Shown piece after piece: positions 16,169 through 64,000 of a stretch of 64,000 nucleotides of DNA. Position numbers and translations under genes: made by a program. This DNA is from Chitinophaga arvensicola. Lineage in GTDB: Bacteria > Bacteroidota > Bacteroidia > Chitinophagales > Chitinophagaceae. The stretch lies in assembly GCF_900110835.1 (NCBI RefSeq), contig NZ_FOJG01000001.1, positions 1,995,022 to 2,059,021 of the forward strand. Reading direction: 5' to 3'. The notes under the pieces were generated by a model, which searched no databases, was not told the origin of the DNA, and saw nothing but the letters and a program-made list of their open reading frames with translations. The stretch's first letter is position 1, and each line of letters begins with the position of its first letter.

Positions 16169-16885
16169 TTATCTGAGTAATGTTACATTGCCTTTCAGCT
16201 GGAAAAATTCATTGGTATCACAGTAAGCTTCGAGGAAGTAAATGTATACGTCCGAAGGCTGCGGCTTTCCGTTGAATGAGCCATTCCATCCTGCGCTGAT
16301 ATCGTCTATGTTGATTTTTTCACGGTGATATACTTCCTGTCCCCAGCGGTTAAAAATCCGGAAGGATTTGATCATGCTCACACCTTTACCACGGGGATAG
16401 AAGACGTCGTTTTGCCCGTCGCCGTTGGGACTGAAAGTATTAGGAATAAATACCACGTCGGTATTACAGACGAGGTCTATATTTACGATGTCGCTTTTCG
16501 AGCAGCCGAACTGGTTAGTACCGGTGATGCTGTAGGTAATCGGTTTGCGTACAGCTGCTGTTACGTATACCGAATTAGGATTATCCAGGTAATCTTCCGG
16601 ACTCCATTTCCATTTTATCACATCTGGACTTCCGCTCGCCATCAATTTTACAATATCGCCTACCATCACAGTCTGGTCTTTCCCGGCGTCTACCTGTGGT
16701 ACCGGCTTTACGGCTACTTTAACAGAGAGTGGTGCGCTCATCGGACAAATGGGATCGTTCGTCCCTGTTACCTGGTAAGTGATATCTGCTATGGGCGTGG
16801 TAACGGGGTTGGCGATGGTGTTATTGGTTAAGCCGGTTACCGGAGTCCAGTTATAGGTAGTGGCGCCTGCTGCTCTCAGTTGCAC
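16169..16885 (-). CDS. 3' part of a frameshifted PKD/CHU_C surface protein
   Basis: These 238 residues continue the protein of 16876-19017 in another frame. They hold two Ig-like/PKD-like modules (TTYNWTPVTGLTNNTIANP, then KWKWSPEDYLDNPNSVYVT) and a complete type B C-terminal domain (VFIPNTFSPNGDGQNDVFYP, FRIFNRWGQEVYHRE, GNVTLLR at the end). The visible ATG has no signal peptide and begins in mid-domain, so it is not an independent gene. One base inserted near 16885-16890 would join both parts into 949 residues with the open frame kept throughout. Confidence 0.85.
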   Translation of the reverse strand: MQLRAAGATTYNWTPVTGLTNNTIANPVTTPIADITYQVTGTNDPICPMSAPLSVKVAVKPVPQVDAGKDQTVMVGDIVKLMASGSPDVIKWKWSPEDYLDNPNSVYVTAAVRKPITYSITGTNQFGCSKSDIVNIDLVCNTDVVFIPNTFSPNGDGQNDVFYPRGKGVSMIKSFRIFNRWGQEVYHREKINIDDISAGWNGSFNGKPQPSDVYIYFLEAYCDTNEFFQLKGNVTLLR

Positions 16886-19017: not shown

Positions 19018-19195
19018 AGGTACACAGGGTTTTCCATTACTAAAAGACACCACAAATTAATAAAAATAACATATATAAATTTTTTGATTTTCGGAAATGA
19101 TGATACCGGGAACGATGAAAACCAGCGTAATGGCTGCAAATCAATAAGATCCGGTATCAAAATTTCCATTTGAGTTCTTTTTCAGCGACTTAGTG

Positions 19196-22100: not shown

Positions 22101-24070
22101 TTTTGATCCGTGGAAGTGGCGCCATTTTCACCGAATTCCCAGAGCCAGGTTTTCACTGGTGTTGGAATTGGACCGAATGTAGAATTGTCGGTAAACTTGC
22201 GGTGATAAGGATTCACACAATCCGGAGCAGTTTCAAAACGTGCGATGGGTGGAATGATCTGTATATAATTCCGTTTAATCAATTGTTCCACGCAGCCGTT
22301 GTTGTTTACTTCGAGGATGATATCGTGGTTACCGATTTCATTAAAAGTGTGATTAGGATTTTCATCGGTACTGGTGCTGTTGTCCTGCACAAAAATCCAG
22401 GTCCAGGAAGTACCGCGTGGAACGGAGAGATTGGTAAATTGCACCGGATCTTTAGCACAGGATTTCAGTGGTGTAGCCACGAAATCTACTACAGGTTTGG
22501 TGCCCGCCATGATAATGGTAGTACCGGTAGCCGTACATCCACCTGCGGTAGTCACCGTAATAGAAACGGTGTAAGTACCCTGTGCCGTGAAAACATGATG
22601 AGGTCTGGCATCGGTAGAAGTGGCGCCATCTCCGAAATTCCATGCGTAACTCACAATAGGATCGGTGATGTCCAGTTCCACGTAGAAGTCTACCGGTAAA
22701 GGAATACAGCCTTCCTGTATACTGCGGTAGATACTCAGGTTAGGTTTGGCAATGCTGATGTAACGTGGTTTATTGACTGTTTTACTACATCCTGAAGCAT
22801 TGGTAGCTACGAGACTGATATCATAAATACCTTCCCGTGTATAAGTATGCGAGGGGTTTTCCAGCATAGACGTTGTGCCGTCTCCGAAATTCCATAGCCA
22901 GCTGGTGGCGCCGGTTGATTGTGCATTGAACTGTGTGGTAAAAGGTGTGTTACAGGCACTGATTGGCGTAGCTACGGGGTCAATCTGCGGAGATGGATTT
23001 ACATGAATGGTTTGTTGTATTTCTTCCATACAGGTGCCTAAAGTGGCCTGCATCTTCACAATATAGTCGCCCGGTGCAGAGAATTGTTTCACTGCATCTG
23101 TGCTTGTTTGTGTGGTACCATCCGGAAAAGCCCATGTAACCTGGTCTGGTGTAGGTTGAGTGGTATTGGTAAAAGTAACCGGTTGATCAACGCACAGCGA
23201 AGAATAAGTGAATGCCGGTTTTACTTTTTCGATAATGATATACTCTGTTTTAACCAGTGGGGTGGAGCAGCCGCCGGGAGTAGTAGCTGTGAGTTTTACG
23301 GTATAGCGTCCTTCCTTCGTGTAGGTGTGTTGGTTAGTTTGCCCGGTGCTGCCGTCTCCGTAATCCCAGGTGTAAGTAACCGGATCAGGAGAGTTGTTGA
23401 CGGTGTTATTAAAAAAATTAACAGTAAACGGAGTAACGCAGCTTTGTGTTTTATCTGCAGAAAAAACAGGTGTGGGTGCTTTTTCTACCTTAATAGGTAC
23501 CGGGCCTTTGAAGTTAGTACAGCCGTAGGAGTTAGTAACGGCGCTGATAACATTGTTGGTACCTGCATTTGTATATACATGTGTCACATTGGGACCGGTA
23601 GCGCCGCTACCATCGCCAAAGTCCCAGGTAATATCCCTGATGGTGCCATCGCCGGGGGTAGACTGATCCTGGAAAGTGCTGCTGAACGGTGCGCATCCGG
23701 TAAGGCCTCCCATGGTGAAATTAACAGTGGGCTTGTTGTACACCTGAATGTCAATTTGCCTGACGATTACATTGCCTGGTCCGTATGTAGCGGTGAGTTT
23801 TACGTGATAAATGCCGGGATCCTGGAAAGTTTTGGAGGGGGCCAGGTCATTGGTAATATTGGCGCCCAGTCCGAAGTCCCATTCCATTTTCTGGTATCCT
23901 GCATCCAGCGTAGCGGTGAAGTTTACCAGGAAAGGTGGGCATCCTGCCCGTTTATCGGCATTAATGGTAACTGATTGTGCATGCGCAGACATGGCCAGGG
24001 CCATCACCGGCAGCAAACCATAGAAAATATGTCTTATGACAATCCGTAAATAATACTGTAGGCTTTTCAT
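19196..24070 (-). CDS. giant PKD-repeat T9SS type B surface protein
   Basis: The protein has 1624 residues. The signal peptide ends AMSAHAQ and about 15 consecutive PKD domains follow, recognisable by WxFGDG-like turns and a closing GC pair. Examples are ITWDFGDGSGATG, YAWNFGDGATSTDARPHH and YTWDFGDKTTGTGNQP. After these come three Ig-like modules (from ICRGTVLQLQANTTTNV) and a type B C-terminal domain (VFIPNTFSPNGDGQNDIFYI, FRIFNRWGQLVFERT, LLKGNVTLIR). Such proteins are exported by the T9SS and form long surface stalks or adhesins. The paralog at 16169-19017 follows 178 nt downstream, then PorP/SprF, so the block is one surface-display unit. No catalytic domain was found. Confidence 0.93.
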   Translation of the reverse strand: MKSLQYYLRIVIRHIFYGLLPVMALAMSAHAQSVTINADKRAGCPPFLVNFTATLDAGYQKMEWDFGLGANITNDLAPSKTFQDPGIYHVKLTATYGPGNVIVRQIDIQVYNKPTVNFTMGGLTGCAPFSSTFQDQSTPGDGTIRDITWDFGDGSGATGPNVTHVYTNAGTNNVISAVTNSYGCTNFKGPVPIKVEKAPTPVFSADKTQSCVTPFTVNFFNNTVNNSPDPVTYTWDYGDGSTGQTNQHTYTKEGRYTVKLTATTPGGCSTPLVKTEYIIIEKVKPAFTYSSLCVDQPVTFTNTTQPTPDQVTWAFPDGTTQTSTDAVKQFSAPGDYIVKMQATLGTCMEEIQQTIHVNPSPQIDPVATPISACNTPFTTQFNAQSTGATSWLWNFGDGTTSMLENPSHTYTREGIYDISLVATNASGCSKTVNKPRYISIAKPNLSIYRSIQEGCIPLPVDFYVELDITDPIVSYAWNFGDGATSTDARPHHVFTAQGTYTVSITVTTAGGCTATGTTIIMAGTKPVVDFVATPLKSCAKDPVQFTNLSVPRGTSWTWIFVQDNSTSTDENPNHTFNEIGNHDIILEVNNNGCVEQLIKRNYIQIIPPIARFETAPDCVNPYHRKFTDNSTFGPIPTPVKTWLWEFGENGATSTDQNPDFTYLTTGLKQVRLTIDNGICTSTTTQSVNIIDEKPVISSDKPRICKGEAINISLGPINNANVNEYNWDWGDGSPVQNIPAYNFDPTKGISHTYNKTGTFTIKLSITDKNSCTRDAPPISIDVNGTDPDFDFTGKRCKDEIFSFTDKSTASAGNQILNWEWDFGDQTAKENYTTQPVGIKHTYTNANDYTVVLTVTDKFSCVAKATQVIRFDRVKADFIVPSNVACLDKSFTFVDQSEGNVTSYTWDFGDKTTGTGNQPVKVYSAPGKYNVVLKVITAAGCTDEITKTNLITVPDPKASFTIPANLDLCPPVKVLFTNTSTDFVNSHWDFGDNGTSSKNDPDVHIYARAKTYDVILTVYAEGGCSSTTTLPITIKGPDGTMKTTPTQGCVPLTVSVTATSTKTDTYMWDFDDGTVLTSKTPVSPAHTYVKSGIYYPRVSLLDDQGCVVKADGNDKIIVDKTTADFTTDDFQVCGGGLVTFTNKSKTLTKDSLALDFTNAWDFGVPGNPDNNATTFNGSFNYPQPGTTNVKLTVTSAYGCIDEKILPVVIPPQPVAVIAPILPLCVSGKFQLSGSDTRNLTGTKWLWQVGTDKTYTDRVPPEIALNSPGTVPVTLTITNADGSCPSVTTANMVINPSPILNPSPMESKICRGTVLQLQANTTTNVMVDWTNYNISDPASVSPQVKPDIDTVYKVTATNEYGCTNKGEVRVSVTQPFHVYAQDAEICAGESVQMNAGGALRYQWIPARGLNRADIQRPTSTPDGNITYQVVGYDNSNCFTDTALARVYVRSAPVVNAGPDMVIATGSVIPLPVTGSADIIKTEWTPVKGLSCYDCLTPTATPTDDITYHVKVTNQFGCESSDDITIKLVCNEGNVFIPNTFSPNGDGQNDIFYIRGQGMQTIRVFRIFNRWGQLVFERTGSSTNDPSKGWDGRFKGVILNPDVFVYYVELVCDKGAVNLLKGNVTLIR

Positions 24071-36608: not shown

Positions 36609-39062
36609 TTAACCGTTCACCGTGATCAATTTTTTGATCCGGTCTTCCAGCTTCTCACTGGTCATGGTATCACGAAGACTGTCTACTTTAATCGGGAAAC
36701 AGAAGGGTGTCAGCTTTTCCGGATTCGTTATTACAATGCGGCTCACGGCGATCCGCTCCAGCGTTTCGCGTAACCTCGCTTCTTCCATCTGGTAGAAAAA
36801 AGCTTCGTTGAAAGCCTGCTTCAACAGGAGATTCGACGGATCGTAGTCGCCGAATACATTGAACAGCAGCGAAGCAGACGACTGCAAATGCCGGTTGGCT
36901 TTATGTTTACCGGGGTATCCCTGGAAGATGAGGCCTGCAATCACCGCAATGTCGCGGAATTTGCGCCGGGCCATTTCGGTAGAATTGACGCTGGTCTGCA
37001 GTTCTGTGAGCAGGTTTTCGGTAGAAAATAACTGCTTCGCGTTGTCTGCTGTCAGCGGAATAGGCTGGTCAGACAGCAGTTCAAAGCCATAATCATTCAT
37101 GGCAATGGAAAAGGTGATAGGCTGGATCCGGCTGATCCGGTAGGCCAGCAAAGCCGCCATCACTTCGTGTACCAGCCGGCCCTCGAAAGGATATACGAAG
37201 AGATGATAACCGTCTTTTGTTGTTATATGCTCAATCAGCAATTCGTTGTCTTTGGGAATGTGTGATAACTCTTCCTGCAGGTTGAACAGCGGTTGCAACG
37301 CAATCAGTTCCGGGTCTTTTGTATTCCGGGATAAGGCCTCATTAAATTTTTGCCGCAGCATCCGGCCCAGATTGGACGATAACGGGATACGGCCGCCCTG
37401 GTAACTGGGAACAATAGACCGTTTGGAATTTGATTTACGCACGAGTACTGTCATATCCTTGATCAGCACGAATTCCAGGTTGCGGCCAGCCAGTGTGAAA
37501 GCATCTCCGGGGGATAACCGGGAAATAAAACTTTCTTCAATGACGCCGATATAACCGCCACTCATGAACTTTACTTTCAGCATGGCGTCACTCACGATGG
37601 TGCCTATATGCAAGCGGTGGCGCATAGCCATCATCCGGCTGCGGCAGATATAGAAATCGCCTTCCCGCTCTACTTTTTTGAATTCATCATAGCTGCCAAG
37701 GGCATCGCCTCCGGTGGTGAGGAAGGAGAGGAGCCATTGCCAGTCATCTTCCGTAATATGCTGATAGCAGAAGGTATGACTTACTTCTTCCCAGATCTCT
37801 GCGCCATAGAATCCATCCGATACGGCCAGTGTCATGAGGTATTGCAGCAACACATCATAGGCGAGTAACACCGGCATGCGGCTCTCTATCAGATCCTGCT
37901 CCATCGCTGCTTTCAACGCGGCAGCTTCTACCAGTTCCAGCGCATGGGTGGGCAAAAAGAAGATCTTGCTGATAGCGCCTGGTTGGTGACCGCTACGTCC
38001 GGCCCTTTGGAGGAAACGCGCCACGCCTTTCGGGCTGCCCACCTGGATCACACTGTCTACCGGCCGGAAATCCACGCCCAGATCAAGACTTGCCGTGCAT
38101 ACCACCGCTTTCAGGATACCATTGTGCAGGGCCTCTTCCACCCATATACGAAGCTCCATGTCAATGGAGCCGTGGTGTAATGCCAGGGCGCCTGCCAGCA
38201 TGGGGTCTTCCCGCAGCAGGGCCTGGTACCATAATTCTGACTGGGAACGGGTATTGGTAAAGATCAGTGTAGTCTGGCTGTCGTGGATAATGGGCAATGC
38301 CTGCGGCAGCATTTTAATACCCAGGTGCCCGGCCCAGGGATAGTTTTCTATCTCGTGAGGAATCACACTTTTAAGCGCGATATTTTTTTTCAGTTTGGCC
38401 CGGATAATCAGGCCATTGGAATGGTAAGGCCCTAGCAACACTTCCATGGCTTCATCAAGATTGCCGATGGTAGCGGAAATGCCCCATACTTTCAGTTTCT
38501 CTTTACGCAATCCTCTCAACCGGCTCAGACCGAGTTCCACCATCACGCCACGTTTGCTGCCTATCAGCTCATGCCACTCGTCTACTACTACTGTTTGCAG
38601 ATGTTTGAACAAAACAGGATATTCCTTCTGCGCCAGCAGCAGGTGCAGGCTTTCCGGTGTGATGATCAATACTTCCGGCATCTGTTTTTTCTGGGCGGCC
38701 CGAGTAGCCACGGGCGTATCACCACTGCGGATACCTACCTGCCAGGGAACATTCAGTTCCTGCAAAGCGCTTTCCATGGCCCTGCCCAGGTCTTTGGCCA
38801 ATGCCCGCAAAGGCGTGACCCATAATAGCTGTAAACCGTTTTTTGTTTTTTGGGTATAGTCTTTCGGATGCGCATCTATCCATGCGATAACGGCTCCGAG
38901 AAACAATGAGAAGGTTTTCCCGAAGCCGGTAGGTGCATTCACAATCCCTGATTTATCCTGCAGATAAGCCTTCCAGGCATCTTCCTGGAATTTAAAGGGC
39001 TTCAGCTCTTTTTCGCCCAACCATGTAGTAATCACTTTCCATCCACCCGAACGTTGTTGCAT
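36609..39062 (-). CDS. ligase-associated DNA damage response DEXH-box helicase (Lhr-like)
   Basis: This 817-residue superfamily 2 helicase has motif I NAPTGFGKTFSLFLGAVIAW near residue 41, motif Ia TPLRALAKDL, motif II VDEWHELIGS near 157 (DEWH) and motif III ISATIGNLDEA. Motif VI ARFLQRAGRSGHQPG lies near 357. A long C-terminal DEAD/DEAH-associated region and winged helix follow. It is the shorter Lhr form tied to bacterial ATP-dependent ligases rather than full-length Lhr. It translocates on single-stranded DNA and is thought to act in end or crosslink repair with PdeM, the exonuclease and the ligase. It heads the minus-strand transcript that continues into pdeM and the HDAC-like gene. Confidence 0.93.
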   Translation of the reverse strand: MQQRSGGWKVITTWLGEKELKPFKFQEDAWKAYLQDKSGIVNAPTGFGKTFSLFLGAVIAWIDAHPKDYTQKTKNGLQLLWVTPLRALAKDLGRAMESALQELNVPWQVGIRSGDTPVATRAAQKKQMPEVLIITPESLHLLLAQKEYPVLFKHLQTVVVDEWHELIGSKRGVMVELGLSRLRGLRKEKLKVWGISATIGNLDEAMEVLLGPYHSNGLIIRAKLKKNIALKSVIPHEIENYPWAGHLGIKMLPQALPIIHDSQTTLIFTNTRSQSELWYQALLREDPMLAGALALHHGSIDMELRIWVEEALHNGILKAVVCTASLDLGVDFRPVDSVIQVGSPKGVARFLQRAGRSGHQPGAISKIFFLPTHALELVEAAALKAAMEQDLIESRMPVLLAYDVLLQYLMTLAVSDGFYGAEIWEEVSHTFCYQHITEDDWQWLLSFLTTGGDALGSYDEFKKVEREGDFYICRSRMMAMRHRLHIGTIVSDAMLKVKFMSGGYIGVIEESFISRLSPGDAFTLAGRNLEFVLIKDMTVLVRKSNSKRSIVPSYQGGRIPLSSNLGRMLRQKFNEALSRNTKDPELIALQPLFNLQEELSHIPKDNELLIEHITTKDGYHLFVYPFEGRLVHEVMAALLAYRISRIQPITFSIAMNDYGFELLSDQPIPLTADNAKQLFSTENLLTELQTSVNSTEMARRKFRDIAVIAGLIFQGYPGKHKANRHLQSSASLLFNVFGDYDPSNLLLKQAFNEAFFYQMEEARLRETLERIAVSRIVITNPEKLTPFCFPIKVDSLRDTMTSEKLEDRIKKLITVNG

Positions 39063-47966: not shown

Positions 47967-49571
47967 TCAGCTATTGCCTTGTTGTCCATTCACCCGTAAT
48001 AATTCTTTCAGGTCTTCGATGGTATTGATTTCTGCTACCGGTTTATCTTTCCGCCACCGGTTAATACGCGGGAAACGCAGCGCCACACCGGATTTATGAC
48101 GGTTCGATGCGGCAATACCCTCGAAGGCTATTTCAAACACCAGTTGTGGTTCTACCGTTCGTACCGGCCCGAATTTTTCCAGCGAATGCCGTTTTATCCA
48201 GTTATCTACTTCGGCTATTTCTTTATCGGTTAGCCCGGAATAGGCTTTGGTAAAGGGTACCAGCTTTTCGCCGTCTTTCACAGCAAAAGTATAATCGGTG
48301 TATAAGTTGGAGCGCCGGCCATGCCCTTTTTGCGCATAAATCATCACAGCATCGATGGTGAGCGGATCTATTTTCCACTTCCACCAATCGCCCCGTTTAC
48401 GGCCCACCTGGTAGGCGGCGTTTCTTTTTTTGAGCATCAGGCCTTCGCTGCCTTTATCGCGCGATTGCAAACGTAAGCCGGTCAACTGTTCCCAGCTGTC
48501 GAACATAATTTCAGGCGATAATTGCAATACCGGCAATCCGGTACTTTGTACCAGTGATTCCAGCAGCGCACGGCGTTCCGCCAACGGCTTCTCCCGGATA
48601 TCTGCGCCTTCCCATTCCAGCAGATCATAAGCAAGAAAAATAACCGGTGCTTCCTGTAGCTGTTTGCGTGTTACATTTTTACGGCCTATCCGGGTTTGCA
48701 GGGTTTGAAAAGGAAGCGGAAGCCCATTGGTAAAAGTGAGGATCTCTCCATCCAGCACAGCGCCATCCGGCAATGCAGTATTTAATGAAGTAAACTCAGG
48801 GAATTTATCCGTGATCAGTTCTTCTCCCCGCGACCATACAAATAGCTGTCCTTCGCGTTTGATAATTTGTCCACGGATCCCGTCCCATTTCCATTCCGCC
48901 TGCCAGTCTTTCTCTGAGCCCAGTGTTTCCGGCAGGCCTTCCAGCGCGTAAGCCAGGTAAAACGGATATGGGCGTGATGCATCGGCGCCGGTAGTATGCT
49001 GGTGCAACAATTCTTCAATGGTAACATTATGCGGATCCCAGTTGCCGCTGATCATATGAGACAGCGTAGCAGGTACAATCTGGTAGGTTTTTGCCAGTGC
49101 GTTTACCATCATCTTCTGAGATACACCAATACGGAAGCCGCCGGTGATGAGCTTATTAAACACAAACCTTTCTCCGCCGTCGAGCGCATCCCAGGCCTGG
49201 AGGATAAAGGCCTGTTTCGTTTCTTCAGGCGCCTTTTCCAGCTGCTGTAGCTGTTCCAGCCAGTAATGCAATGGTGCAGCTACAGGTGTAGTGCGTGGAG
49301 GGAGCAGCAGCGCAATGGTTTCTGCAAGATCACCAACGGTATGATAACATTCTTCAAACAGCCAGTCAGACATCCCGGTAACCTGCATGCACCAGGTTTT
49401 CAGCTGTGTGCTGTTCACCGTACGTTTGGGACGCCGGCCGGAAAACAAAGCCAGTACCCATGTTTTATCCTTATCCGGTGCGGTGGCAAAGTACTGGCTC
49501 AGCGCCTCCAGCTTTTCGTTGGTTTTGGTGCTGTTGCTTAATAATTGTACCAGTTCAGCGAATTGTTGCAC
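47967..49571 (-). CDS. ATP-dependent DNA ligase of the ligase-associated repair set
   Basis: The protein has 534 residues. An N-terminal alpha-helical DNA-binding domain (about 1-200) precedes the nucleotidyltransferase domain. Motif I EWKWDGIRGQIIKREG near residue 226 has the adenylated Lys. Motif III ILFLAYDLLEWEG lies near 306, motif IV SEGLMLKKRNAAY near 373 and motif V GDWWKWKIDPLTIDAV near 393. The OB domain holds GVALRFPRINRWRKDKP near the end. It seals nicks using ATP and is the hallmark of the set that includes PdeM, the Lhr-like helicase and the MBL exonuclease. The start is a GTG at 49571, 3 nt after the exonuclease stop. Confidence 0.93.
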   Translation of the reverse strand: MQQFAELVQLLSNSTKTNEKLEALSQYFATAPDKDKTWVLALFSGRRPKRTVNSTQLKTWCMQVTGMSDWLFEECYHTVGDLAETIALLLPPRTTPVAAPLHYWLEQLQQLEKAPEETKQAFILQAWDALDGGERFVFNKLITGGFRIGVSQKMMVNALAKTYQIVPATLSHMISGNWDPHNVTIEELLHQHTTGADASRPYPFYLAYALEGLPETLGSEKDWQAEWKWDGIRGQIIKREGQLFVWSRGEELITDKFPEFTSLNTALPDGAVLDGEILTFTNGLPLPFQTLQTRIGRKNVTRKQLQEAPVIFLAYDLLEWEGADIREKPLAERRALLESLVQSTGLPVLQLSPEIMFDSWEQLTGLRLQSRDKGSEGLMLKKRNAAYQVGRKRGDWWKWKIDPLTIDAVMIYAQKGHGRRSNLYTDYTFAVKDGEKLVPFTKAYSGLTDKEIAEVDNWIKRHSLEKFGPVRTVEPQLVFEIAFEGIAASNRHKSGVALRFPRINRWRKDKPVAEINTIEDLKELLRVNGQQGNS

Positions 49572-54784: not shown

Positions 54785-55705
54785 ATGAACGAAAGACCGA
54801 AGATCCTGGTGGTATATTATACCCAGACAGGGCAATTGAAAAGGATTATTGATCATGTGCTGGCTCCGTTGGAAGGCAAGGCAGATATAACTTTTGAGCA
54901 ACTGGTACCCGTAACGCCGTTTCCTTTTCCATGGGGAAAACAGGAATTTTACGATACCATGCCGGAAACTATCCAGGCAACGCCGCGCGGTATACAGCCA
55001 TTGAAAGTGGACATGAATGCACATTTCGACCTGGTTATACTGGCTTATCAGCCCTGGTTCCTGTCTCCTTCACAGCCTGTTGCCGCTTTCCTGCAGAGTG
55101 AAAGCGGAAAACAACTGCTGAAAGGAAACAAGGTGCTTACCCTTGTTGGTAGCCGTAATATGTGGCTGAATGCACAGGAAAAAGTAAAGACTTACCTGCA
55201 TAACGCAGGTGCTACGCTGGTAGGCAATATTGTACTGGTAGATAAATCACCTAACCTGATTTCCGTTATCACCATTCTGCGCTGGGCTTTCAAAGGAAAG
55301 AAAGAAGCTACCCGCTTTTTACCACAGGCCGGCGTACAGGAAAATGAGATCATTACTTCCAGTCGTTTCGCCGGACCTATCTCGGAAGCATTACAGAAAA
55401 AACAGTGGGATGACCTTCATCCGGAGCTGATGAAGCTGGATGCGGTGGAATTGATCCCCAACCTGGTGGTTTTGGAAGGAAAAGGACACCGTGCCTTTAA
55501 ATTCTGGGCCAAATTTATTAGCGCCAAAGGTGGACCGGGCGCCGCTTCCCGTCAGGGACGGGTGTCCATGTACCGGGGTTTGCTGCTGGTGGGCATTTTT
55601 GTGTTAACACCGATCTCCCTGATCACTTCCATTATACAGCTGAACCTGAAAAAAGCCAAGCTGCGCCGTGAAGTGGATTATTATAAAGGTATTGCCCTGC
55701 GTTAA
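54785..55705 (+). CDS. darA: dialkylresorcinol-forming enzyme DarA
   Basis: The protein has 306 residues. The N-terminus is a flavodoxin-like fold (KILVVYYTQTGQLKRIIDHV, the FMN phosphate loop). The mid-part has FDLVILAYQPWFLSPSQPV and VLTLVGSRNMWLNAQEKVK, and a C-terminal membrane helix (about 265-287, LLLVGIFVLTPISLITSIIQ) is followed by a basic end. DarA of Chitinophaga acts after DarB, which makes a 1,3-cyclohexanedione, to form the aromatic dialkylresorcinol ring. The flavodoxin-like N-terminus fits an oxidation step. The membrane helix suggests that the product is made at the membrane. It heads the cluster behind a phased direct-repeat region. Confidence 0.85.
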   Translation: MNERPKILVVYYTQTGQLKRIIDHVLAPLEGKADITFEQLVPVTPFPFPWGKQEFYDTMPETIQATPRGIQPLKVDMNAHFDLVILAYQPWFLSPSQPVAAFLQSESGKQLLKGNKVLTLVGSRNMWLNAQEKVKTYLHNAGATLVGNIVLVDKSPNLISVITILRWAFKGKKEATRFLPQAGVQENEIITSSRFAGPISEALQKKQWDDLHPELMKLDAVELIPNLVVLEGKGHRAFKFWAKFISAKGGPGAASRQGRVSMYRGLLLVGIFVLTPISLITSIIQLNLKKAKLRREVDYYKGIALR

Positions 55706-55943
55706 TACAGATCAAGTCCACCTCAACTGTACCTCAAGAGAGGTCAGAGGCAGGTACAAAGCATGCGCGATGCAATCTTTGTCCAATGGCGTGATACTTG
55801 TAATTCCAATTAGAATTCTATATTTACGTCTGTATACAACGTATATAAAATTAAAATATGTTTTTCACTGTGAATCGGCTGGCAAGGCAAGGCGGTTCTG
55901 ACCAGGTTTTACATGTAGCCTTAAAAGACGAATAATAATTCAG

Positions 55944-57080
55944 ATGAAGGAAGTTTATATTACCAGGCTGTCTAAATTTTTACCAAACAAGCCTGTAGAA
56001 AATGAGGAAATGGAGAGCATTCTCGGCATGGTAGATGGAAAGGCTTCCCGTGCACGTTTGAAGATACTTGGTAACAATAAAATCAAAACGCGTTACTACT
56101 CTTTGGACAAGGAAGGGAAATCCACGCATTCCAATGCAGAGATGACAGCCACGGCTGTGAACCAGTTGTTCGATGAGCAGTTTCCAATCAGCAAATTACA
56201 GTTACTGGCCTGTGGTACTACATCTCCGGATCAACTGCTGCCTAATCATGCTGCCATGGTACATGGCATCCTGAAGTGTCAGCCGGTAGAACTGATCGCT
56301 GCTACAGGCGCCTGCGCGGCAGGTATGCAGGCGTTTAAATATGCCTGGATGTCTATCCGTTGCGGCAATACCTCCAACGCTGTAAGTACTGGCTCGGAGA
56401 AATTCTCCGCCTGGATGCTGGCACAGAAGTTTCAACCGGAAGCAGAAAACCTGAAAAGCCTGGATGAAAATCCCATCATCGCTTTTGAAAAGGATTTTCT
56501 CCGCTGGATGTTATCTGATGGCGCGAGTGCAGCCCTTTTCCAGGATAAACCCAATGAAGAAGGTTTATCGCTGCGGGTAGACTGGGTAGAAATACTCTCT
56601 TACGCCAATGAGCTGGAAACCTGTATGTATGCAGGTGCTATCAAACAGCCGGATGGAACCACCACCGGATGGATTGATATGACCCCGGAAGAATGGGCAC
56701 AGCACAGCGTATTCTCCTTTAAACAAGATACCCGTTTACTCGGCAAAAATATTGTTCCTTCCGGAGCACAGATGTGGAAAGAGCTGGTAGAGCGTCACAA
56801 CATCAACCTGGATGAAATTGATTTCTTCCTGCCTCACCTGTCTTCTGAATTCTTCAGATTAAAGATCGATGAGGAAATTACCCGCTTAGGCGTACCTATT
56901 CCTTTGGAAAAATGGTTTACGAACTTAGCCAATGTGGGTAACGTAGGTACGGCTTCTCCTTACCTGATGCTGGAAGAACTGATGAACTCCGGCCGCTTTA
57001 AGAAAGGACAGAAAGTGGTGATGATGGTGCCGGAAAGCGCACGTTTTTCATATGCTTATGCCCACATCACGGTGGTATAG
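55944..57080 (+). CDS. darB: ketosynthase DarB (KAS III-like)
   Basis: This 378-residue KAS III-type thiolase fold shows Cys124 in ATGACAAGMQAFKYA, His298 in FFLPHLSSEF and Asn333 in LANVGNVGTASPY, the complete Cys-His-Asn triad. DarB condenses a beta-ketoacyl thioester with an unsaturated acyl thioester to give a cyclohexanedione, the first step of dialkylresorcinol synthesis. The 238-nt gap after darA (55706-55943) holds no convincing gene. An AT-rich stretch there could carry a second promoter. The 132-residue unknown gene follows by 24 nt. Confidence 0.88.
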   Translation: MKEVYITRLSKFLPNKPVENEEMESILGMVDGKASRARLKILGNNKIKTRYYSLDKEGKSTHSNAEMTATAVNQLFDEQFPISKLQLLACGTTSPDQLLPNHAAMVHGILKCQPVELIAATGACAAGMQAFKYAWMSIRCGNTSNAVSTGSEKFSAWMLAQKFQPEAENLKSLDENPIIAFEKDFLRWMLSDGASAALFQDKPNEEGLSLRVDWVEILSYANELETCMYAGAIKQPDGTTTGWIDMTPEEWAQHSVFSFKQDTRLLGKNIVPSGAQMWKELVERHNINLDEIDFFLPHLSSEFFRLKIDEEITRLGVPIPLEKWFTNLANVGNVGTASPYLMLEELMNSGRFKKGQKVVMMVPESARFSYAYAHITVV

Positions 57081-57104
57081 GTAGTCACTTCTAAAACTGC
57101 TATC

Positions 57105-57503
57105 ATGAAAAAAGAGGAAGTACCACAGGATAGTGATAACCTGCATGAAGGTACATTCAAGCAGATTATGTACGCGGTGGATAATTCCGGCAATTATGTG
57201 CAGGTGCAGAGTGCAGGCTGGGAGCCGGAAAATATAGCACTGGACCAGGCCTGGGAAGAAGTAAATGAAAGAGTAAAACAGGCACGCGCCCGGGTAGAAG
57301 CCGGTGAAATAAGTCCCGTGGCTTATTACATGGAGAAAAACCTGATGGACCTGCCGCTGCTGGCCAGTTATGTGGGTAAGTTCCAATGGCAGGTAAAGCG
57401 GCATATGAAGCCCGGTGTATTCAAAGGGCTCAGCCCTAAGCTGCTGCAACGCTATGCAGATGCCTTCAAAGTGAGTTTAACAGATCTTCTGCAGATCAAA
57501 TAG
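57105..57503 (+). CDS. small protein of unknown function in the dar cluster
   Basis: The protein has 132 residues, no signal peptide and no membrane helix. An acidic start is followed by a stretch GTFKQIMYAVDNSGNYVQVQ and an Arg/Glu-rich helix (EEVNERVKQARARVEAGEIS). The C-terminal half (AYYMEKNLMDLPLLASYVGKFQWQVKRHMKPGVFKGL, then LLQRYADAFKVSLTDLLQI) reads like a helix-turn-helix fold of the XRE type with the second helix VGKFQWQVKRHM. It may be a DNA-binding regulator or a helical scaffold for the pathway. No family was recognised. It sits between darB and a long structured spacer. Confidence 0.7.
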   Translation: MKKEEVPQDSDNLHEGTFKQIMYAVDNSGNYVQVQSAGWEPENIALDQAWEEVNERVKQARARVEAGEISPVAYYMEKNLMDLPLLASYVGKFQWQVKRHMKPGVFKGLSPKLLQRYADAFKVSLTDLLQIK

Positions 57504-57588
57504 CATTACGAATGACGAATCAGCAATAACGGATTTGTGGGTAGATGATATCCGATGATCTCCCCGCAAATCCGTTATTTGTAATGCT
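57502..57588 (+). ncRNA. structured intercistronic element
   Basis: The outer arms AGCATTAC / GTAATGCT (57502-57509, 57581-57588) enclose an inner 15-bp stem with one G-U pair (57535-57549 and 57565-57579). Together they make a long two-level hairpin over almost the whole spacer between 57503 and 57604. It could stabilise the mRNA or slow transcription between the two genes. Confidence 0.55.
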
Positions 57589-57603
57589 GCTACAAATAAT
57601 ATT

Positions 57604-58608
57604 ATGACTAATTCTTTTTTCCAACACAAGCAAACGGCACATTGCGAAAGTGGTGTAATATCAAACCTGCTGGGACATTATGGTTTACAGATCAGTGAAC
57701 CCATGGCTTTTGGTATTGGTGCAGGCATTTTCTTCGGTCACCTGCCCTTTGTAAAAGTGAATGGCGTGCCGGGCACCACCTACCGCATATGGCCCGGTGC
57801 TATTTTCCAGCGCGTTTGTAAACGCCTGGGTGTGAGAATGGAATCTGAAAAGTTTTCCACACCGGAAAAGGGAATGGCAGCACTGGATAAAGTCATTGAA
57901 GCGGGTATTCCTGTAGGACTCCAATCCAGTGTATACTACCTGCCCTATTTTCCGGCTTCCTACCGTTTTCATTTCAATGCACATAACCTCGTGGTTTACG
58001 GCAAACAGGACGGACAATACCTGGTGAGCGATCCCGTAATGGATACTGTTACCACTATTGACCCGGAAAGCCTCACCCAGGCCCGTTTTGCAAAAGGCTT
58101 CCCGGCGCCGAAAGGAAAAATGTACTATCCGGTACATGTACCTCCTACTGCGTCGTTTGAGAAGCCCATCAAAGCAGGGATTGAACAGGCCTGTCACTTT
58201 ATGCTGAAAGTGCCTATTCCGATGTTCGGGGTAAAAGGCATCCGCTTTCTATCCAAAAGGGTACGCAACTATGCAGAGAATCCTGGCGATCGTAAAGCCA
58301 CATTGTACCTGGGAAATATTATCCGGATGCAGGAAGAAATAGGTACCGGTGGCGCCGGTTTCCGTTTCCTGTATGCCGCATTTTTACAGGAAGCAGCGGT
58401 AATGCTGAATAAAGATGAACTGAGTAAACTGGCAGGAGAACTCACCAAAACGGGTGACCTGTGGCGTAACTTTGCTTTTGCGGCAGGGCGCGTGTGTAAG
58501 AGCAGATCTGCTGATAACGTCTCTTACAAAGAACTCAGTGATATGTTACTGGAATGTGCCGCTTCAGAAGAAGTTTTCTTTAAGAAGCTGGCGCAGGTGA
58601 AACTGTAA
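57604..58608 (+). CDS. BtrH-like cysteine acyltransferase (BtrH_N / DUF4872)
   Basis: The protein has 334 residues with the papain-like fold of BtrH. Near the N-terminus is AHCESGVISNLLGHYG (Cys14), HFNAHNLVVYG follows near 121 (His) and YLVSDPVMDTVTTIDP near 139 (Asp), the three positions of a Cys-His-Asp triad. A DUF4872-type half follows. BtrH of butirosin synthesis moves an acyl group from an acyl carrier protein to an acceptor. Here the gene lies between darAB and an ACP plus ketosynthases. I infer that it joins a carrier-bound acyl chain to the resorcinol hydroxyl, the ester bond of flexirubins. It has no secretion signal. Confidence 0.8.
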   Translation: MTNSFFQHKQTAHCESGVISNLLGHYGLQISEPMAFGIGAGIFFGHLPFVKVNGVPGTTYRIWPGAIFQRVCKRLGVRMESEKFSTPEKGMAALDKVIEAGIPVGLQSSVYYLPYFPASYRFHFNAHNLVVYGKQDGQYLVSDPVMDTVTTIDPESLTQARFAKGFPAPKGKMYYPVHVPPTASFEKPIKAGIEQACHFMLKVPIPMFGVKGIRFLSKRVRNYAENPGDRKATLYLGNIIRMQEEIGTGGAGFRFLYAAFLQEAAVMLNKDELSKLAGELTKTGDLWRNFAFAAGRVCKSRSADNVSYKELSDMLLECAASEEVFFKKLAQVKL

Positions 58609-58628
58609 TTAAAAGATCCAAATGAATT

Positions 58629-59375
58629 ATGTCCGGCATATCTGTTAAGGAGCTATATAAAACCTACAAGGGAAGCGCAGAGCCCACACTGAAAGGACTT
58701 ACATTTCAGTTTGGAGAGGGAAGGATTGCGGGTTTGCTGGGACCTAACGGAGCAGGTAAAACTACCACCATCTCCATTTTATGCGGCATTGTGAGGGGCG
58801 ATAGCGGAGAAGTAAAGATCCATGGCTTAAAGCAACAGGCATCGCACCGGGAAACGATCAAACATATTATCGGGATTGTTCCCCAACAGATAGCGCTATA
58901 TCCGCAGCTGTCGGCGGTAGAAAACCTTACTTATTTCGGTAACCTCTATGGGTTTAAGGGAAAGGCACTGCAGGAAAAGATTATGCATTACCTGGAGTTG
59001 TTCGGACTGGAAAAAAGCGCACATAAAGAGATTCATAAATATTCCGGCGGTATGAAGCGACGGGCCAACATTATCGCAGCCATCCTGCATGACCCCAAAT
59101 TACTGGTGCTGGATGAACCTACCGCAGGTGTGGATGTACAGTCGCGCAGCATGATTTTACAGTTCCTGCGCGATTATAACCGCCAGGGCGCCAGCATCCT
59201 CTATACTTCCCACTTGCTGGAAGAGGCGCAGTCTTTATGCGAAGAGGTGGTGATCATGGACGAAGGCAGGATGATCGTACAGGGCAATCCCCTGACGCTG
59301 ATCCATCAGCATCCCGACTGTAATAACCTGGAAGACGTATTCCTGCATTTTACCGGGAATGCGCTCAGGGATTAA
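58629..59375 (+). CDS. ABC exporter ATP-binding protein
   Basis: The protein has 248 residues. Walker A is LLGPNGAGKTTTISILCGIV near residue 34, the Q-loop is IVPQQIALYPQL, the signature is KYSGGMKRRANIIAAILHDP near 138 and Walker B is LLVLDEPTAGVDVQS near 160. The type is the DrrA/CcmA group that powers ABC-2 exporters. It lies 20 nt after the BtrH-like gene and 42 nt before the permease. In the pathway it may export pigment or its precursor toward the outer membrane. Confidence 0.92.
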   Translation: MSGISVKELYKTYKGSAEPTLKGLTFQFGEGRIAGLLGPNGAGKTTTISILCGIVRGDSGEVKIHGLKQQASHRETIKHIIGIVPQQIALYPQLSAVENLTYFGNLYGFKGKALQEKIMHYLELFGLEKSAHKEIHKYSGGMKRRANIIAAILHDPKLLVLDEPTAGVDVQSRSMILQFLRDYNRQGASILYTSHLLEEAQSLCEEVVIMDEGRMIVQGNPLTLIHQHPDCNNLEDVFLHFTGNALRD

Positions 59376-59417
59376 CTATAACGAATTCAAAAAGCTACTG
59401 ATAAGGGGCGAAAAGCT

Positions 59418-60710
59418 ATGTTAAGATTACTGGCAACCATCAGGAAAGAGTGGCAATTGCTATTGCGTGATAAAACAGGAATCATTCTCCTGTTTGTGAT
59501 GCCAGTGGTGTTGATTACTGTTATGGCACTCATCCAGGATGCACCGTTCAAGGATTACCAGGATGTGAAGTTCGATATCTTAACGGTAGATAATGACCAT
59601 GGCCGCCTGGGACGTTATGTAAAAGAAGGGCTGGCCAGCGGCGGTCAATTCAACATCATTGACTCCCTGGAAGGGAAGCCGGTGACTGCGGAACGTGCCA
59701 AAGAACTTGTTAATGACGGAAGATACAAGATCAGTATTATCATCCCGGAAGGGGCTACAGCCTCGATTGTCAGCAATGCCAACCGGATTGTAAACGATAT
59801 CACCCATCGCATGGGCATGTCGGTGTCTTTGCCGGTGAAGAAGGTGCCGGATTCACTGAATGTGACCATTTATTTTGATCCTGCGGCAAAGAAGGCATTT
59901 AAAGGAGCTATTCATCAATCGGTGGATAACTTCCTGACACAGGTAGAAACAGATATGTTGCTGGATCGCATTAAGCACCAGTTGCGGAGTAAGGATAGTA
60001 CGGTCAGCGATACAGATACCCTCGCCATCCGGCTGCAGGCAGTAGGTTTGAAGGAACAGAGCACAGGCTCCGGTAAACAGCTGGATGTTATTTCCAATTC
60101 GGTGCAGCATAATGTACCGGCCTGGAGCATTTTCGCCATGTTTTTCATCGTAATACCGATTGCCGGGAATATGATCAGGGAACGGGAAGATGGGAGCTTG
60201 CTGCGGATGAAGCTGATACCAGGATCTTATCTGGCGATTCTTGCCGGTAAGATGTTGTTTTTTGTGGGCGTTTGTGTGCTGCAATTTTACCTGATGATGC
60301 TCGTCGGTATTTATGTGCTTCCTTTGCTGGATCTGCCACAGCTGGTGATGGGACAACATCCGGGCGCCACGCTGCTGGTAGCTGGTGGAATAGGACTGGC
60401 GGCCACCGCTTATGGTATCCTGATTGGCACGGTATTTAAAACACCAAACCAGGCGCTCAACTTCGGTGCTATCTCTATTGTGATCCTGTCTGCCATAGGC
60501 GGTATCTGGATTCCACTGGAGGTAATGCCTGCAAAGATGCAGCTGTTAGGGCATTTATCGCCTTTAAGCTGGGGGCTGGACGCCATCAATGATATATATC
60601 TGCGTAACGGCGATATTGAATTCGTGTGGAAGAATGTGTTGAGATTAATACTCACCGGATTGGCTATGCTGGCCATAGCCGGCTGGGTCGAAAAAAGAAG
60701 AATGAACTGA
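59418..60710 (+). CDS. ABC-2 type transporter permease
   Basis: The protein has 430 residues with the ABC-2 layout. One N-terminal membrane helix (GIILLFVMPVVLITVMALIQ) is followed by a large periplasmic region of about 210 residues and then five or six helices in the C-terminal half, for example VPAWSIFAMFFIVIPIAGNM and LNFGAISIVILSAIGGIWIP. It is the partner of the ATPase at 58629-59375. It is longer than a minimal DrrB and resembles the YhaP/NatB-type group. The likely cargo, from context, is a lipid-like resorcinol or pigment intermediate. Confidence 0.9.
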   Translation: MLRLLATIRKEWQLLLRDKTGIILLFVMPVVLITVMALIQDAPFKDYQDVKFDILTVDNDHGRLGRYVKEGLASGGQFNIIDSLEGKPVTAERAKELVNDGRYKISIIIPEGATASIVSNANRIVNDITHRMGMSVSLPVKKVPDSLNVTIYFDPAAKKAFKGAIHQSVDNFLTQVETDMLLDRIKHQLRSKDSTVSDTDTLAIRLQAVGLKEQSTGSGKQLDVISNSVQHNVPAWSIFAMFFIVIPIAGNMIREREDGSLLRMKLIPGSYLAILAGKMLFFVGVCVLQFYLMMLVGIYVLPLLDLPQLVMGQHPGATLLVAGGIGLAATAYGILIGTVFKTPNQALNFGAISIVILSAIGGIWIPLEVMPAKMQLLGHLSPLSWGLDAINDIYLRNGDIEFVWKNVLRLILTGLAMLAIAGWVEKRRMN

Positions 60711-60802
60711 TAAATGTTTTCAAAACAATAGTAAAACTGTATTTTTACTCCCCACAAGGGCATTCGCCTGTTGTGAACAACAGGTGATAAACCTACAACA
60801 TT

Positions 60803-61060
60803 ATGGAAGAATTAAAAAAGAAACTGAAAGAACAAATCATCGAAGCACTCAATCTTCAGGATACGAAGCCGGAAGACATTGATGACAATGCTGCCTTATT
60901 TGGTGAAGGATTGGGACTTGATAGTATCGACTCACTCGAACTGATGGTATTACTGGAAAGACAATATCATATCAAAGTAGAAGATCCCCGTGAAGGCCGT
61001 AAGATCTTACAGTCTGTTCAGTCTATGGCAGAATTTATCCAATCAAAACAACCGGCATAA
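60803..61060 (+). CDS. acyl carrier protein
   Basis: The protein has 85 residues. The 4'-phosphopantetheine site is the Ser of GLGLDSIDSLELMVLLERQY (Ser41). The rest is the acidic four-helix ACP fold. Its sequence is not that of the housekeeping AcpP, and it lies in the dar cluster just before two ketosynthase genes (13 nt to the first). It most likely carries the growing chain of the aryl-polyene or alkyl part and supplies the BtrH-like acyltransferase. Confidence 0.93.
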   Translation: MEELKKKLKEQIIEALNLQDTKPEDIDDNAALFGEGLGLDSIDSLELMVLLERQYHIKVEDPREGRKILQSVQSMAEFIQSKQPA

Positions 61061-61073
61061 GTAAACTGGCTAC

Positions 61074-62288
61074 ATGGCGGAAAGAGTGTTTATAACAGGG
61101 ATAGGAATGATCACCGCCATTGGTGATAATGTAGCCGGAAACTTGCATCACCTGCGATTGCAGCACAGTGGGCTGGGTTACAGTCAATATATCGATACAA
61201 TTTACAAAGATGTATTGCCGGTAGCAGAAGTAAAACATGCGAGCGAATCGTTGTTCCCATTAGCCGGTATACCGGTAAAGGAAGGGTACACCCGTACCAC
61301 TTTACTCGGATTGGCAGCTATGCGGGAAGCGTTGCAACATGCAGGCATCACAGATGTACAATCAGCTCCTACGGGCTTTATCAATGCCAGTACGGTAGGC
61401 GGAATGTGTGATACGGAAAAACTCTATTTTGATATTATCAATCCTGAAAAAAACGGGTCCTTTCTGCAATATATCGACACGCTGGATTGTGCGGATTGTA
61501 CACAGCGTGTAGCCGACATCGTTGGGTTCAGTGAACATATTGCTACCATCAGCACCGCCTGTTCCTCGTCTGCCAACGCATTGATGTTTGGTGCGCGAAT
61601 GATCAAACAGGGCCTTTTGCCACGGATGGTTTGTGGCGGTACAGAAGCCCTCACGCGTTTCACGCTGAACGGATTCAACTCGCTGAAAAATGTGGATAAG
61701 CAATTCTGCCGTCCTTTTGATCAGCAACGCACGGGACTGAATCTGGGCGAAGGAGCTGCTTACCTTGTGCTGGAAGGCGAGTCCTTTGCCAGGGCCAATA
61801 ATAGCCGCATCCTCGCAGAGTTAAGCGGATATTGCAATACCAACGAAGCATTTCACCCTACTTCTCCCTCACCAGACGGAGATGGCGCCTATGAAGCCAT
61901 GAAAATGGCCCTGGCGATGAGTGGACATTCACTGGAAGAAGTATCCTATATCAACGTACATGGTACTGCTACACTCAACAACGACGTATCTGAAGGAAAA
62001 GCACTGGAGCGCTTATTCGGGGAGAATGTTCCTTTATTCAGCTCTACCAAACCTTTCACCGGACATACACTAGCAGCGGCAGGCGCCATAGAAGCCATCT
62101 ATTCTATACTGGCTATTCAACACGGGTTAATATTCCCTAATCTCAATTTTTCGGAAAGAATGGAAGAATTGAACATCAGCCCGGTAACGACACTGATGGA
62201 AGGATACCCCGTTAATCATGTTATTTCAAACTCATTCGGCTTTGGAGGAAACAATGCCTCCCTGGTGATCAGCAAATATGAAGGGTAA
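61074..62288 (+). CDS. beta-ketoacyl-ACP synthase (active ketosynthase)
   Basis: This 404-residue KAS I/II type enzyme has a complete triad: Cys163 in ISTACSSSANALM, His296 in INVHGTATLNND and His331 in STKPFTGHTLAAAGAIE. The gate loop and the end FGFGGNNASLVI are also normal. It should do decarboxylative condensation on the cluster ACP. It overlaps the next ketosynthase-like gene by 11 nt, as is typical of ketosynthase/chain-length-factor pairs that form a heterodimer. It begins 13 nt after the ACP gene. Confidence 0.93.
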   Translation: MAERVFITGIGMITAIGDNVAGNLHHLRLQHSGLGYSQYIDTIYKDVLPVAEVKHASESLFPLAGIPVKEGYTRTTLLGLAAMREALQHAGITDVQSAPTGFINASTVGGMCDTEKLYFDIINPEKNGSFLQYIDTLDCADCTQRVADIVGFSEHIATISTACSSSANALMFGARMIKQGLLPRMVCGGTEALTRFTLNGFNSLKNVDKQFCRPFDQQRTGLNLGEGAAYLVLEGESFARANNSRILAELSGYCNTNEAFHPTSPSPDGDGAYEAMKMALAMSGHSLEEVSYINVHGTATLNNDVSEGKALERLFGENVPLFSSTKPFTGHTLAAAGAIEAIYSILAIQHGLIFPNLNFSERMEELNISPVTTLMEGYPVNHVISNSFGFGGNNASLVISKYEG

Positions 62289-63324
62289 GTGTTACATACA
62301 AGGAATGGCGGCTATCTCTCCGCAATCAACATTTGAGGGGGATATTTTTTCTGCGCCGATGGTACATACAGATAGTAACCTGCTTTCCTGTATAGAACCG
62401 GATTATAAACCGTTTATTCCCGGCAACAGCCTGCGTCGTATGACACGAGTACTTAAAATAGGACTGACCACCGCACTCAAATGCATCCAGGACAGTGGCA
62501 TTACCACACCTGGCCCTATTGTTACCGGCACTGGTAAAGGGAGTTTACAGGATACGGAAAAATTCATCAAGGAAATTGCTGAATACAAGGAAACAGCCTT
62601 GAATCCTACGCCTTTTATTCAATCTACTTACAACTCTGTCAATGGTTTAATTGCGCTGCAACAAAAATGTACGGCGTACAACAACACTTTTGTACATCGC
62701 GGTTTCTCTTTTGAAAATGCGTTGCTGGACAGTATGATGCTGTTGCAGGAAGGCGCCTCCCATACGCTGACCGGCGCTTTTGAAGAAATCACGAAAGAGC
62801 ATTTCTATATTAAAAGCCGCATCGGCTTCTGGAAAGAACAACCTACCGACAGCCGTGCTTTGTATACCCATTTCTCTCCTGGTACGATAGCCGGCGAAGG
62901 CGCCACTTTCTTCACACTTACCGGAACGCCTTCATCAGACAGTTATGCCGCTATTACGGGATTTAAAATGCTGTATAAACCAACTGCGGAAAAATTGTCC
63001 GTTGCCCTGAAAGACTTTACCACAGCGCCGGATCTGATCATCAGTGGTCGCAATGGCGACAGTACTTATGAACATTACTATGAAACATTGGATCAATGTT
63101 TTCAAGGCATACCACAACTGCCTTTCAAACATCTCTGCGGAGAGTATGATACAGCAGGCGCTTTCGGTTTATGGCTGGCAGGGCAGATGCTGAAAGCACA
63201 GCAAATACCGCAACAATGGTTTCCTTTTTCAACAGAACATTTGCCGGCGAATTTTAATTCTATTCTTTTTTACAATCATTTTTATGGGGAGCAGCATGTG
63301 ATGCTGAAGCTGGAGAGAGTTTAG
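62278..63324 (+). CDS. ketosynthase-like chain-length-factor-type protein lacking the catalytic Cys
   Basis: The protein has 348 residues with the ketosynthase fold but no active-site cysteine. Where the partner has STACSSSANAL this one has VHRGFSFENAL, so Cys becomes Gly142. The histidine motifs are also degraded. The N-terminus still shows the segment PIVTGTGKGSLQDTEKF and the Asn-rich NSVNGLIALQQ. This is the pattern of chain-length factors (Ketoacyl-synt_2 type), which pair with an active ketosynthase and set the chain length. It overlaps that gene by 11 nt. The cluster seems to end here, as the next gene lies on the opposite strand. Confidence 0.85.
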   Translation: MKGKCYIQGMAAISPQSTFEGDIFSAPMVHTDSNLLSCIEPDYKPFIPGNSLRRMTRVLKIGLTTALKCIQDSGITTPGPIVTGTGKGSLQDTEKFIKEIAEYKETALNPTPFIQSTYNSVNGLIALQQKCTAYNNTFVHRGFSFENALLDSMMLLQEGASHTLTGAFEEITKEHFYIKSRIGFWKEQPTDSRALYTHFSPGTIAGEGATFFTLTGTPSSDSYAAITGFKMLYKPTAEKLSVALKDFTTAPDLIISGRNGDSTYEHYYETLDQCFQGIPQLPFKHLCGEYDTAGAFGLWLAGQMLKAQQIPQQWFPFSTEHLPANFNSILFYNHFYGEQHVMLKLERV

Positions 63325-63406: not shown

Positions 63407-64000
63407 TCACAGCATTTTACCCAGTGCCTCTGCATCAGGTAAAAACTCTTTCATATTGTCTGGGATATTGTCGGTTTGATAATGAGTGTATGTTCCTACG
63501 CTCAGGGCTTTATCAATGGATTTAATGGCATAGTCCACTACCATATTATCTTTTTGCTTGCAGAGTACAATACCGATACTTGGGTTTTCGTGTGGTAATT
63601 TTACTTTATCATCCAGCACGTTTAAATAGAAATTGAGTTGTCCGGCATATTCCGGTTTGAATTTTTTTCTTTTGAGTTCAATCGCTACGAGGCATTGCAG
63701 GTGCCGGTTATAGAAAAGCAGATCTACAAAGAATTCATTATTGTTGACTTCCAGTTTATATTGATTACCAATGAATGAATATCCTTTTCCCATGCTCATA
63801 ATGAACTTCCGGATATTGTTTACTATTTCATTTTCAAGTATTCCTTCATCATCTTCATCATTGATATTGAGAAAATCGATGAGGTATTCGTCTTTAAATA
63901 CTTCCAGCGCTTTGGATTTGATATTTTCGGGTAATGTTTTATTGAAGTTATGAGGCATGTTACCCTGGTGTTTGAAGAGATTAGCTGAAAGATGATGTTC
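63407..64000 (-). CDS. YhcG-type PDDEXK nuclease, C-terminal part (5' end outside window)
   Basis: The frame stays open to the right edge (14 further codons upstream of the ATG at 63958, ending EHHLSANLFKHQGN), and the family usually has about 340 residues. I therefore treat the 63958 ATG as internal and the gene as running off the window. The visible part holds the PDDEXK core: NNEFFVDLLFYNRHLQCLVAIELKRKKFKPEYAG gives Asp-x(n)-Glu-x-Lys, followed by NFYLNVLDDKVK and IGIVLCKQKDN. YhcG/DUF1016 proteins are DNA nucleases often found in mobile or defence-rich regions, though many are of unknown role. It faces the dar cluster tail to tail. Confidence 0.85.
   Translation of the reverse strand, partial: EHHLSANLFKHQGNMPHNFNKTLPENIKSKALEVFKDEYLIDFLNINDEDDEGILENEIVNNIRKFIMSMGKGYSFIGNQYKLEVNNNEFFVDLLFYNRHLQCLVAIELKRKKFKPEYAGQLNFYLNVLDDKVKLPHENPSIGIVLCKQKDNMVVDYAIKSIDKALSVGTYTHYQTDNIPDNMKEFLPDAEALGKML

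Follow-up and report, generated by a model that had tools for sequence, protein, structure and literature searches.

The window analysed here is a stretch of 64,000 nucleotides from Chitinophaga arvensicola (contig C3, positions 1995022 to 2059021, in a genome of 8.3 Mb in three contigs). Nine open reading frames on the forward strand were verified between positions 54785 and 63324 of the window, and they constitute a normal flexirubin dar locus. The fourth gene, darH, predicts a BtrH-type acyltransferase that probably joins an aryl-polyene to a dialkylresorcinol as an ester. The genes, the codons of the predicted DarH catalytic residues and the bordering gene are as follows.

54785..55705, + strand: darA, predicted dialkylresorcinol condensing/aromatising protein, 306 amino acids (aa), assigned from its place before darB and from homologues
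55944..57080, + strand: darB, dialkylresorcinol ketosynthase, 378 aa, Cys124 (NF053539, 616.5 bits, cut-off 550)
57105..57503, + strand: darG, 132 aa, predicted DarH partner (NF053545, 196.7 bits, cut-off 170)
57604..58608, + strand: darH (darE in Azoarcus), BtrH/DUF4872-type acyltransferase, 334 aa (NF053550, 485.5 bits, cut-off 300)
57643..57645, + strand: DarH Cys14 codon, predicted nucleophile, kept in 58 of 58 sequences
57982..57984, + strand: DarH His127 codon, predicted base, kept in 58 of 58 sequences
58030..58032, + strand: DarH Asp143 codon, predicted third triad residue, kept in 57 of 58 sequences with one gap
58629..59375, + strand: ABC transporter ATPase (PF00005)
59418..60710, + strand: ABC-2 type permease (PF12698)
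60803..61060, + strand: acyl carrier protein (ACP), Ser41 attachment site (PF00550)
61074..62288, + strand: ketosynthase (KS), active-site Cys163 (PF00109/PF02801)
62278..63324, + strand: Cys-less KS-like partner, Phe143 (PF13723)
63407..64000, - strand: YhcG/DUF1016 nuclease, 338 aa, extending beyond the end of the window; it borders the locus and is not a member of it

From darA to the last gene, the intergenic gaps are 238 (darA to darB), 24, 100, 20, 42, 92, 13 and -11 bases. DarB, DarG and DarH all score above their NCBIfam cut-offs, confirming the dar/flexirubin-type assignment made in an earlier sequence-only reading of the window, and the gene order and opposite-strand nuclease described there agree with the reading frame coordinates and the YhcG/DUF1016 match. 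No Pfam or NCBIfam model matched DarA in the profile search of window proteins; its name rests on its position before darB and on homologues similarly placed in other dar loci, which precede darB in 55 of 119 DarH loci among the matches listed.

The dar gene order, BtrH-like gene included, is already catalogued (available text of PMC3949708; NCBIfam NF053550). Table 1 of that 2014 paper gives the order in Azoarcus sp. BH72 as darA, darB, darD, darE, darF, darI, darC, darJ and darK, and the window matches it in the small protein (darD), BtrH-like protein (darE, listed as a 'BtrH-like peptidase'), ABC ATPase (darF), permease (darI), ACP (darC), KS (darJ) and darK. Azoarcus differs in having two extra internal genes, its own darG and darH (PilT and antitoxin-like), and a xanthomonadin-like polyene. 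The names used here are those of NCBI, whose DarG is the counterpart of Azoarcus darD and whose DarH is that of darE; darG and darH of Azoarcus are different genes. Two dehydratase-like genes lie between darB and darG in four other loci (L068:8102-9353, L075:10600-11554, L077:10358-11435 and L079:6945-7884), and the window locus has none in this position.

To the right of the locus, the nuclease gene is followed by a zinc carboxypeptidase-like gene and then by 2-oxoglutarate dehydrogenase and sugar-acid genes. As these metabolic genes are unrelated, the locus ends at 63324 and is not truncated, and the earlier view that the nuclease gene cuts the cluster off is not upheld. A split layout is also on record: in Chitinophaga pinensis, dar (Cpin_6850/6851) and flx (Cpin_1853-1877) are in separate places (available text of PMC3992019). 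Ketoreductase, dehydratase, thioesterase and tyrosine ammonia-lyase genes were not found between 54785 and 63324, as the sequence-only reading had said, and genes of these kinds sit in an flx cluster on contig C2 (C2:3372784-3398324). Of the two possibilities raised earlier for the remaining genes, that they are elsewhere is thus correct and that they are missing is ruled out.

The flx cluster places polyene genes in the same genome as the dar locus and includes the tyrosine ammonia-lyase FlxA (864.7 bits, cut-off 700), the CoA ligase FlxY (686.6 bits, cut-off 520), LolA2 (224.8 bits) and LolB2 (132.1 bits), the last two each above their cut-offs, and an FlxJ-type methyltransferase (547.3 bits) slightly below the FlxJ cut-off of 560. 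It also contains genes for a reductase, ketosynthases, ACPs, an LpxL-like acyltransferase, dehydratases, a thioesterase and a halogenase-like flavin adenine dinucleotide (FAD) enzyme, as well as an ACP/KS/KS-like triple, a deacetylase, a glycosyltransferase, an exporter, an FAD oxidoreductase, a C45/AAT-type protein and AcpS. The arrangement in two places, with the FlxA and FlxY families present, is like that of C. pinensis.

The KS of the dar locus has Cys163 in the motif TACSSS and the aligned residue in its partner is Phe143, in line with the active and Cys-less pair described from the sequence alone; a KS with the Cys beside one without it is the arrangement predicted for a type II KS/chain-length-factor pair. 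A triple matching the ACP/KS/KS-like one of the dar locus is present in the flx cluster, the two KS being 48% identical, and one such triple was seen in each of the opened cluster sets of four other genomes (G012, G057, G174 and G182). In a KS tree, the flx KS of the window genome pairs with the flx KS of genome G099 (100/100) and the placement of the dar KS is unsettled; this tree gives no support to the KS gene having been duplicated recently.

DarH matches PF14399 (BtrH_N; 171.9 bits, cut-off 29.7) and PF16169 (DUF4872; 187.9 bits, cut-off 28), and is 94% identical to DarH from a Chitinophaga metagenome-assembled genome (MAG). The conserved Cys-His-Asp residues, Cys14 among them, had been pointed out previously and their conservation in the 58 sequences bears this out. 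They stand in papain order, and in the predicted model (predicted local distance difference test, pLDDT, 93.9) they are positioned at helix and strand starts. A fold search with this model matched CtaG, AziU3 and CcbD across the whole length. CcbD (celesticetin) and CtaG (closthioamide) are 12-15% identical to DarH and use amines as acceptors, unlike the phenol proposed for DarH. The CcbD triad is given as Cys-His-Glu in the available part of a review, whereas DarH has Asp.

CtaG, the nearest fold relative, is proposed, in the available part of the source, to hand hydroxybenzoyl to a carrier-bound peptide. Together with the ACP gene within the dar locus, this would suit a role for DarH in shuttling acyl chains between carriers or releasing them, for example by placing the polyene onto the dar ACP, with another enzyme making the ester. 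We regard this as improbable, as no further acyltransferase-type gene is annotated in the window dar locus and DarH tracks DarB rather than polyene genes alone.

The enzyme put forward for the ester in the C. pinensis work is FlxW, proposed in 2014 as 'a ligase-like enzyme (FlxW)', and the BtrH-like protein is given no role in the available text (PMC3992019). The C45/AAT-type gene of the flx cluster (C45 family, 229.9 bits; PF03417) was equated with FlxW by gene order, not by the table of that paper; its product is predicted to be an autoproteolytic acyltransferase and has what appears to be a membrane segment at the N terminus. If FlxW makes the ester, DarH would do something else. The comparative test of which acyltransferase forms the flexirubin ester is new here.

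DarH, FlxY and FlxW were searched for in the same 198 Bacteroidota genomes. DarH was above cut-off in 12 of these and in none of 14 control genomes. A thirteenth, weak match (G158, 152 bits) was treated as another BtrH paralogue; in that genome FlxY and DarB matches do not rise above background. FlxY was found in 13 genomes and FlxW, at >480 bits, in 12; all 12 DarH genomes carry FlxY and 11 carry FlxW (Fisher tests, which ignore kinship, 2e-18 for DarH with FlxY and 4e-16 for DarH with FlxW). Of these 12 FlxW matches, those in G057 and G174 were each reported with one internal stop, which speaks against FlxW. DarB, searched for in 18 chosen Bacteroidota genomes, is present in all 12 that have DarH, above cut-off in 11 and at 519 bits in G017. 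The last genome carries darG-darH (L071:9883-11343) and darB (G017:C8:158651-159769) on different contigs, with darG-darH apart from flx too, and the link between DarH and DarB is thus more than a shared operon position.

The distributions of DarH and FlxW coincide except in two genomes. G118, which is a single contig, has an flx cluster with FlxW, FlxY, LpxL-like and FlxU genes, and neither DarH nor DarB (best match 29 bits) was found in this genome. G099 has DarA, DarB, DarG, DarH and flx genes, and FlxW was not found in a whole-genome search, the flx stretch there reaching the contig end. G118 (L061-L062), with its flx-type polyene cluster in a genome that lacks DarB and DarH, is possibly a polyene producer without flexirubins. 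G118 also bears on the LpxL-like protein and the acyltransferase domain of FlxU. Acyltransferases of these types are kept across published polyene clusters (available text of PMC3949708) and either might make the ester, but both are retained in G118 where DarB is lacking, and this assignment appears very improbable.

Outside this sample, a scan for a DarH motif in G+C-rich codons recovered at least 119 stretches, each at most 8 kb. Among 80 titles listed, the taxa include Azoarcus, Variovorax, Pseudomonas, Neisseria, Caulobacter, Desulfobacterales, Opitutaceae and Bacteroidota. Among the matches listed, DarH is in 119 of 119 stretches, DarG in 105, an ABC gene in 88, DarB in 74, DarA in 55 and FlxW in none. 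In 36 DarH genomes chosen for a FlxW check, FlxW was strong in all 5 Bacteroidota, and no orthologue was found in the 31 others, Azoarcus MAGs included, where there were only 3 matches of ≤42 bits. A FlxT-like glycosyltransferase was considered as a polyene marker and matches in 35 of 36 DarH genomes at E 1e-20, but carries little weight because the match mostly spans the common GT2 part. In 35 genomes chosen for a DarB check, which overlap partly with the 36, a DarB homologue of >400 bits occurs in 28, and the idea that DarG-DarH is separable from the resorcinol genes was largely withdrawn. DarB relatives were found in 16 plasmid records (4 opened) and DarH relatives in 88 (3 opened); none of the 7 opened records, one of them without annotation, has a dar locus. 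Phages gave no DarH match.

An ester-forming FlxW would be expected wherever resorcinol and polyene genes co-occur, and this is not seen in G099 or in any of the 31 non-Bacteroidota genomes. With its retention in G118, the distribution of FlxW fits less well than that of DarH; FlxW is disfavoured as the general ester former and is unlikely to fill this role, despite its presence in 11 of 12 Bacteroidota DarH genomes.

DarG has a predicted model with pLDDT 92.2, in which residues 70-132 form, according to the fold matches, a Cro-like helical domain. In one deltaproteobacterial MAG, DarG and DarH are fused in a single open frame (L127:4857-6302). The structure of AziU3 is a complex with AziU2; AziU2 was absent from the DarG fold matches listed. 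Syntrophaceae MAGs contain tandem DarG-DarH pairs, three in L133:3571-7999 and two in L141:5026-8000, adjoining genes for an FlxU-like exporter and an LpxL-like protein; DarB was not found in the L133 genome and was found in that of L141.

Elsewhere in the window, and all on the - strand, are an Lhr-type helicase gene (36609-39062), an ATP-dependent DNA ligase gene (47967-49571) and genes for large PKD-repeat proteins (16876-19053 and 19196-24070), the larger of which carries a type IX secretion signal domain. Lhr-type helicases and ATP-dependent DNA ligases co-occur in a bacterial repair set.

From gene content, residue conservation, predicted fold, co-occurrence and the one DarG-DarH fusion, we infer acyl transfer by DarH, its donor and acceptor, and a DarG-DarH complex. 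DarA and DarB, which in the case of C. pinensis are reported to make the resorcinol in E. coli (available text of PMC3992019), would form the dialkylresorcinol, and the flx cluster on the other contig would supply the acyl donor. The aryl-polyene chain would pass from an ACP to Cys14 of DarH and then to a phenolic hydroxyl group on the dialkylresorcinol, with DarG acting as partner subunit. The ABC pair may move the product or pigment, and the local ACP/KS/KS-like triple is guessed to be a dedicated beta-ketoacyl supply for DarB. Among the candidates for making the ester, the BtrH-like protein, first suggested by the sequence-only reading, is the best supported, in agreement with the co-occurrence and the fold, its activity being predicted.

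Several points weigh against ester formation by DarH. The relatives with a described reaction form amides and no phenol esters, and AziU3 has a role in aziridine formation, so that the reaction cannot be read from the fold alone. By sequence, the DarH profile misses CtaG and CcbD, and its match to AziU3 is no better than E 0.46-0.48. The two genomes that separate the candidates, G118 and G099, are single cases. The curated cut-off is passed by only 3 of the 28 DarB homologues, and no DarB was found in 7 of the 35 genomes, MAGs by title, one of which has three DarG-DarH pairs (L133). The NCBIfam name 'BtrH-related acyltransferase DarH' (NF053550) denotes a class and states neither reaction nor test. 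No test of DarH was found in the literature searched, mostly non-subscription and available in part (PMC3992019, PMC3949708, PMC9606717, PMC12945683, PMC6772006, PMC9966250, PMC10318531); 'DarH' in the available text of PMC10312091 is an author name and not a protein.

A broader reading, quite possible but held more tentatively, is that DarG and DarH together make up a phenol O-acyltransferase of two subunits, in which a Cro-fold protein has become the enzyme partner of a Cys enzyme of the BtrH/CcbD type. It would attach aryl-polyenes from a carrier to dialkylresorcinols as esters in Bacteroidota, Pseudomonadota and several further phyla, and in Syntrophaceae it would have multiplied into the tandem copies, which may acylate further acceptors.

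The orange flexirubins are a classical pigment marker for Bacteroidota, and the ester step has so far been tentatively assigned to FlxW, with the BtrH-like gene listed as a peptidase (available texts of PMC3992019 and PMC3949708). The comparison favours DarH, together with DarG, and the question of the ester can now be tested by single-gene deletion. If DarH does form this bond, BtrH-type enzymes would make phenol esters besides amides.
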